DNA of 38,742 bases. Origin: a bacterium. Its GTDB lineage: Bacteria; Vulcanimicrobiota; Vulcanimicrobiia; Eremiobacterales; Eremiobacteraceae. The stretch spans positions 1-38,742 of the forward strand of contig CADDZI010000023.1 of the NCBI GenBank assembly GCA_902812405.1, written 5' to 3'. Below, piece by piece: positions 4,325 through 5,199 of the stretch. The position numbers and the translations under genes are program-made. Each line of letters begins with the position of its first letter. Within the stretch, counting starts at the first letter, position 1. The notes beneath the pieces are model-generated. The model was given only the letters and a program-made list of their open reading frames with translations. It did not search any database and was not told the DNA's origin.

Positions 4325-5104
4325 TCAGCGAGCTGTGCGCAACACGCGCTGCCAGGCTTGGCGCGCCACCATGCGATCCTCCGGCTTGGGAACGACGATG
4401 TCAACCTGGGGCAAGCCCTCCAAGTTGATCGTGCACCCGCGCCACCCCGCACGCCGCGCGCCCGCTCGCAGCGCCGTACGCGCCGTCACGCGCTTGCTGT
4501 CGATGCAACGTCCGGGGACCGCCCACACCCATTCCACGAGTCCCCGCCGGCGATCGTATTCGGCGAGCACGTAATCCGGAAGTCGTCCCGCATGGATGGC
4601 CTGGATGACCGGCCAGTAGGCCGCCCCTGTGACCGTGCCGTCGAACCTGCCATTTTTTGACTTGAGTTGGTACTCATGGTCGCAGGCCGGACAGGTGAAG
4701 TCCACAAGAGGCGTCCCGGGCACATTGCTTCGCAAACGGTCGCTCGAACACGACAGGCAGTAGAGATTTAATTCGGCCCATGTTTCAATGACCACGCGTG
4801 CGATTTGCGAGGGGCTCGCAAACCGGGCTGCCGGTGCCAGGTCCAGGAGCAGGCTTACGGCAGGGGCGCCATCCAGGCGACGGTAGCGCCCTTTGCCCAA
4901 AAACGCGATGCGCCCTTGATCGCGCAGGATTTGCAGCGTCTGCCGAATTTTCGCTTCAAGGAACCGATTGTTGGGGTACTCGCGCGCCAAACGTTCCTTG
5001 TAGGCGAGGACCGCAGCCAGCGTAAACTCGCGCGGCAACCCGGCGATCACATCCTCGACCAAGTCCTTCCACGTCTTCTTCTCTGTTCTGCGTGCTGCAC
5101 TCAC
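4325..5104 (-). CDS. DpnI-like methyl-directed restriction endonuclease with permuted domain order
   Basis: The 259-residue protein contains both domains of DpnI, the enzyme that cuts GATC when the adenine is methylated, but in reversed order. Residues 11-77 match DpnI's C-terminal winged helix (IRQTLQILRD at 54-63, then GKGRYRRL at 70-77). Residues 98-238 match DpnI's N-terminal nuclease domain. That part has a four-cysteine zinc site (C116, C119, C138, C141), an active-site aspartate (D135), QLKSKNG at 146-152 where DpnI has ELKSKKG, GAYW at 160, and RRAGWRGC at 217-224 matching DpnI's RRAGWIGC. The length equals DpnI (254). The start is a GTG at 5104 with GAGGAG eight bases upstream; an out-of-frame ATG lies between. 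It is divergent from the HNH gene (95 bp apart), and no methyltransferase gene is near. Known: DpnI reads methylated adenine with both domains. Inferred: this enzyme attacks modified foreign DNA. The glutamine at 146 leaves activity open. Confidence 0.88.
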   Translation of the reverse strand: MSAARRTEKKTWKDLVEDVIAGLPREFTLAAVLAYKERLAREYPNNRFLEAKIRQTLQILRDQGRIAFLGKGRYRRLDGAPAVSLLLDLAPAARFASPSQIARVVIETWAELNLYCLSCSSDRLRSNVPGTPLVDFTCPACDHEYQLKSKNGRFDGTVTGAAYWPVIQAIHAGRLPDYVLAEYDRRRGLVEWVWAVPGRCIDSKRVTARTALRAGARRAGWRGCTINLEGLPQVDIVVPKPEDRMVARQAWQRVLRTAR

Positions 5105-5199
5105 CGGTCATCTCCTCAGGGTCCGGAATCGGGAGCGCCCCTCCGCTGTGGCAAGAGCGTCTGCCCACCGGGGCGAACTCGCCCAGCCTGGAGGGCGGC

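Follow-up and report, generated by a model that had tools for sequence, protein, structure and literature searches.

A DpnI-family protein with its winged helix ahead of its nuclease domain, an order shared across one uncultured bacterial lineage

The 38,742-nt stretch of DNA analysed here (the window) encodes a 259-residue protein that, judged from its sequence, is a member of the DpnI family by domain content and a variant by architecture, with the winged helix placed before the nuclease domain instead of after it. This reversed order is wider than the window's gene and is a trait of one uncultured bacterial lineage; as far as the searched literature shows, a winged-helix-first DpnI-type enzyme is undescribed. 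DpnI itself cuts DNA with methylated GATC sites, and we consider it likely that the window protein is a stand-alone methylation-dependent (Gm6ATC, type IIM/IV) restriction endonuclease of the DpnI family with an N-terminal, 6mA-reading winged helix. The features on which this reading is built are as follows (window positions, with the source of each call in parentheses).

4325 to 5104, minus strand (read from 5104 to 4325): gene for the DpnI-type protein, 259 aa, GTG start (open reading frame, Pfam, PDB sequence match)
5112 to 5117, minus strand: Shine-Dalgarno sequence GAGGAG, 7 nt ahead of the GTG (sequence)
4874 to 5083, minus strand: winged helix of the DpnI_C family, residues 8–77 (Pfam, phmmer, alignment)
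4859 to 4873, minus strand: extra connector of about 5 residues (78–82), from the winged helix to the equivalent of DpnI Met1 (alignment)
4331 to 4858, minus strand: DpnI-type PD-(D/E)XK nuclease domain, residues 83–258 (Pfam, phmmer, AlphaFold, Foldseek)
4661 to 4702, minus strand: predicted active site D135-x10-Q146-L-K148, equivalent to DpnI D53/E64/K66 (alignment; roles from PMC4117772)
4436 to 4480, minus strand: predicted methyl-pocket and base-reading loop R209, L212, R218, W221, G223 (alignment; roles from PMC4117772)
5200 to 6117, plus strand: HNH_2 nuclease gene, 305 aa, head to head with the swapped gene (Pfam and structure-sequence comparison)

Both halves of the protein are recognizably of the DpnI kind, with Pfam matches to DpnI_C (Dam-replacing HTH, PF17726) at residues 8–75 (E = 1.5e-19, 70.4 bits, cut-off 23) and to DpnI (Dam-replacing family, PF06044) at residues 85–236 (E = 2.9e-34, 118.8 bits, cut-off 26.7). 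A first-pass annotation of this DNA had described an N-terminal DpnI-like winged helix (residues 11–77) followed by a DpnI-like nuclease half (98–238), and both placements hold, with the nuclease limits corrected to about 83 and about 258. In a phmmer search against PDB sequences, DpnI was the sole match (E = 8e-30) and was aligned in two blocks (query 83–233 on DpnI chain positions 4–153, and query 25–77 on 205–257) whose order is swapped, so that the window protein reads winged helix first and nuclease second. DpnI runs from nuclease (1–182) to winged helix (183–254) (PMC4117772), as that annotation had stated, and it was equally right that both halves align to DpnI and that total lengths are the same (259 versus 254 aa). 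The PADLOC methyl-directed REase model also matched the protein (E = 1.4e-40). An AlphaFold model built with 17 homologues reached a mean pLDDT of 88 and a pTM of 0.71, with pLDDT falling to 67–69 across residues 81–100, and the proposed structural comparison with DpnI bore out the family assignment: the top Foldseek matches in the PDB were DpnI chains 4kyw/4esj (E = 2.9e-17, rmsd 1.8 Å over 175 columns of one domain), with PvuII following at much weaker scores.

Taxonomically, the family is carried by 18 of 149 Eremiobacterota genomes (the phylum named Vulcanimicrobiota at NCBI), and within the window's own taxonomic family by one genome of 14, that of the window. The frame is full-length in 17 of the 18 members; all 17 match both Pfam families and have the winged helix first, and the eighteenth, which has a frameshift in its nuclease part, likewise begins with the winged helix. 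Outside this phylum, in samples of Chloroflexota (400 genomes), Actinomycetota (397), Pseudomonadota (299) and Bacteroidota (248), every full-length homologue examined (19/19) is nuclease-first, like DpnI. The survey of domain order that the first-pass annotation had called for thus set the window's gene within a lineage-wide pattern. A pattern scan of an 84,980-species collection returned 12 collinear winged-helix-first loci, 11 of them labelled Eremiobacterota and the twelfth encoding a protein with the same scores and length as that of L007 (the window's class). Since the survey elsewhere consisted of the four-phylum samples and this one scan, further swapped lineages are possible. Among mobile elements, a search of the viral_contigs set with the swapped profile found no relatives, the phages scanned gave nothing beyond a winged-helix match, and the plasmids scanned gave one Neisseria gene of normal order and otherwise just matches to the winged helix by itself.

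These scans also touched other proteins with a DpnI-type winged helix. Two viral contigs encode proteins (L111 1242–2186 and L112 1326–2192) with an NPPY motif like that of adenine methylases and, at the C-terminus, a winged helix of this type (AKIRQTLQ), and here the 6mA reader appears to be joined to a methylase, as it is elsewhere to nucleases. On two others, short proteins (L107 1977–2210 and L108 1791–2210) consist of little beyond the winged helix and are possibly free-standing readers or inhibitors. On the Lactiplantibacillus plasmid NZ_CP028262.1, a gene whose annotation names a sigma-70 family factor (L113 2288–3661) adjoins a DEAD/DEAH helicase gene and has the winged helix near the N-terminus of its product; it is probably a misnamed fusion protein. 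Within the family, the most divergent swapped homologue (L037 1261–1989, the same gene in L024) has lost the zinc cysteine C141 and ends early, and is possibly inactive or altered in function. Several members are broken (L050/L104, L011/L012, L065, and L066 and L069), through an internal deletion that leaves the start of the nuclease fused to the winged helix in L050 and through frameshifts or split genes in the others. The gene seems to be lost often, as would be expected for a costly restriction enzyme.

Geometrically, the two domains are joined by a shorter connector than had been proposed. The first-pass annotation's linker at about residues 78–97 shrinks to an extra connector of residues 78–82, since DpnI Met1 aligns at about residue 83 and residues 83–97 belong to the nuclease domain itself, being the mostly unstructured stretch with which that domain begins in DpnI too and which is followed by the minor-groove-contacting helix; the winged helix is therefore attached about 5 residues ahead of a complete nuclease domain. 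Counted from KIRQ in the winged helix to Q-L-K in the active site, the distance is 92–94 residues in all 17 swapped species, as compared with 165–172, in the opposite direction, in normal-order enzymes. Such near-constant spacing suggests that the inter-domain geometry is under selection.

Evolutionarily, a tree of the catalytic domain places the swapped proteins in one clade (100/99), nearest to the normal-order Chloroflexota enzyme L039. When the tree was rooted on L075, a distant family member with no detected winged helix and a single long outgroup branch, the swapped clade together with L039 (97/93) was nested among normal-order enzymes, which implies, with the caveat of that long branch, that the swapped order is derived. 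How the winged helix came to stand first is a separate matter. An independent fusion, in which the C-terminal winged helix was lost and an N-terminal one gained from another nuclease (for instance of the wH-HNH type), comes close to an even chance in our judgement without reaching it. N-terminal winged helices of the same family do occur in other nucleases (L029, a wH-HNH protein, and the wH-GIY-YIG and wH-HNH types of PMC11037411), and winged helices intermingle between nuclease types (PMC11037411); moreover, the winged-helix tree sets the swapped proteins apart from the normal-order ones (92/93), with L029 falling inside the swapped set. However, the L029 branch is very long, the tree has just 78 columns, and AU tests on those columns rejected none of three arrangements, whether the swapped winged helices were grouped with the normal-order set (p = 0.375), with the Gln-type normal-order enzymes (p = 0.189) or with non-DpnI winged helices (p = 0.339), so the winged-helix tree is uninformative between permutation and independent fusion.

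A within-gene transposition, by which the same winged helix changed ends, from C-terminal to N-terminal (for example by tandem duplication and truncation at both ends), is a credible alternative that we hold tentatively, at somewhat below even. It would accord with the kinship of the swapped catalytic domains to L039 in the rooted tree, with a swapped C-terminus that stops where the normal linker would start, and with a winged helix that stops about 5 residues ahead of the normal start methionine. Against it, neither a duplicate nor an intermediate gene turned up, the root depends on one long outgroup branch, and the winged-helix tree is indecisive. The earlier reading of a permutation and not a fusion is kept as to the DpnI-type nature of both halves and softened to a possibility as to permutation, because the 78-column winged-helix tree fits either origin. 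It would be a further and rather unlikely step that such a transposition tied the 6mA reader ahead of the nuclease by a short constant connector, held the two readers in a different fixed geometry, and left an enzyme that needs or measures a spacing of Gm6ATC sites unlike DpnI's.

Functionally, the residues to which roles in the methyl pocket, base contacts and active site of DpnI have been assigned (PMC4117772) have equivalents that are mostly invariant among the 17 swapped proteins. The zinc site is kept (C116, C119, C138, C141), as are the methyl-pocket and guanine contacts (DpnI R126, L129, R135, W138 and G140 are R209, L212, R218, W221 and G223), the minor-groove contacts (S17/Q18 are S99/Q100) and two active-site residues (D53 and K66 are D135 and K148); in the K52-I-R54-Q segment of the winged helix, K52 and R54 correspond to K229 and R231, which DpnI needs. 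The exceptions fall in base reading and catalysis. The guanine N2 contact N48 is Gly130 in the window protein and Asn in most swapped homologues, and in the winged helix DpnI N224, H225 and Q233 are replaced by R47, F48 and T56, so that the exact specificity of the effector may differ. The catalytic Glu of DpnI, E64, is replaced by Gln (Q146) in the window protein, as it also is in the normal-order enzymes L039, L048, L049 and L057; the change therefore predates the swap or is independent of it.

In the predicted endonuclease, the winged helix (through its KIRQ-LQ-LRD helix) would bind a fully methylated Gm6ATC/Sm6ATS site as effector, while the PD-(D/Q)XK domain would read Gm6ATC independently, using the loop with R209, L212, R218, W221 and G223 together with S99 and Q100 in the minor groove, and would cut within the methylated site, such that foreign Dam-methylated DNA would be destroyed. 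We infer the specificity, the cleavage position, the defence role and the continued service of the moved reader as an effector; what the sequences show directly is which domains are present and in what order, how far their residues are conserved, how the gene is distributed and how evenly its domains are spaced. The genomic setting agrees with restriction of methylated DNA: a search for PF02086 (Dam-type) and PF01555, two main ones among several adenine methylase families, found no match in the genome, which is 96.65% complete, and the neighbouring gene is of a fitting kind. The closest solved structure to the HNH part of this neighbour is VcaM4I, an EVE-HNH modification-dependent nuclease; the neighbour is also weakly like the HNH enzymes that act on phosphorothioate DNA, and its N-terminal part looks PUA/EVE-like by motif (its AlphaFold model, at pLDDT 31.5, was too poor for use). 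In three other Eremiobacterota loci the swapped gene again has this neighbour nearby, as a homologue in L014 (1187–2074) and L017 (1911–2789) and as a remnant in L018 (4655–4918), and the swapped DpnI gene and its HNH_2 neighbour probably form a small type IV defence island. In L014 and L024 the swapped gene is also flanked by two ORF pairs (L014 3882–4886 with L024 5603–6673, and L014 2194–3192 with L024 6630–7649), one pair carrying a SYKPALLKALV motif and the other YHYPR-Y, which by resemblance may be further restriction-type genes. GATC avoidance was considered as evidence and set aside as uninformative, given that counts are near expectation (observed/expected 0.87 in the window and 1.02 in related loci).

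That the protein instead binds without cutting, as a reader or regulator of methylated DNA with Gln at the position of the catalytic acid, seems improbable to us. In its favour, the replacement of Glu by Gln is found in all 17 swapped members; yet D135 and K148 are invariant, the neighbouring gene is of the restriction type, several normal-order relatives have the same Gln, and some nucleases of the PD-(D/E)XK kind tolerate it. A PD-QXK catalytic domain is named in Mrr-type fusions (PMC11037411), which, together with the normal-order relatives, makes the predicted cleavage activity plausible. Finally, although the window comes from a draft genome of 110 contigs, an assembly or frame-choice artefact behind the swapped order has a negligible chance and is ruled out, since 17 genomes, each from a different species, show the same order with the reading frame unbroken and the spacing held constant.

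In the survey of Helbrecht et al. (2024), which covered more than 1,000 winged-helix fusion nucleases, the types described are PD-(D/E)XK-wH, PUA-wH-HNH, wH-HNH, wH-GIY-YIG, PLD-wH and wH-Mrr(PD-QXK)-NTPase (PMC11037411), none of which is a winged-helix-first DpnI-type enzyme, the DpnI type there being solely nuclease-first. We found no description of such an enzyme in the literature searched, which included few subscription papers and lay outside REBASE, nor a characterized enzyme with the reversed order, in line with the first-pass annotation. Domain order varies among other modification-dependent families (PMC6212794), and the principle of reordering is thus already known. Nonetheless, DpnI serves widely as a model for double methyl readout and inter-domain crosstalk (PMC4117772), and a natural reversed order with a short connector offers a direct test of whether that crosstalk depends on connectivity. 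Winged-helix-first DpnI-type enzymes also add to the modular 6mA-dependent nucleases known so far, and may yield a tool enzyme with a different site-spacing requirement.

Among known systems, R.DpnI of Streptococcus pneumoniae (4esj, 4kyw; PF06044 and PF17726) resembles the window protein in having both domains, in length, in its zinc cysteines, in being a stand-alone gene, and in its methyl-pocket and most base-reading residues (identity 30% over the nuclease part and 43% over the aligned winged-helix part), whereas the window protein has its winged helix first, an extra connector of about 5 residues, and Gln for the catalytic Glu. FcyTI and Psp4BI, type IV enzymes of the PD-(D/E)XK-wH type, share the domain content and the predicted Gm6ATC dependence but begin with the nuclease and share about 58% identity with DpnI (PMC11037411). 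The wH-GIY-YIG and wH-HNH fusions likewise place an N-terminal winged helix as 6mA reader before a nuclease, but their nuclease domains are unrelated to that of DpnI, and those wH-GIY-YIG enzymes that have been tested cleave outside the site they recognize (PMC11037411). Lastly, the wH-Mrr(PD-QXK)-NTPase proteins share both the leading winged helix and the PD-QXK active site, and differ in having a Mrr-type nuclease and an added NTPase domain (PMC11037411).
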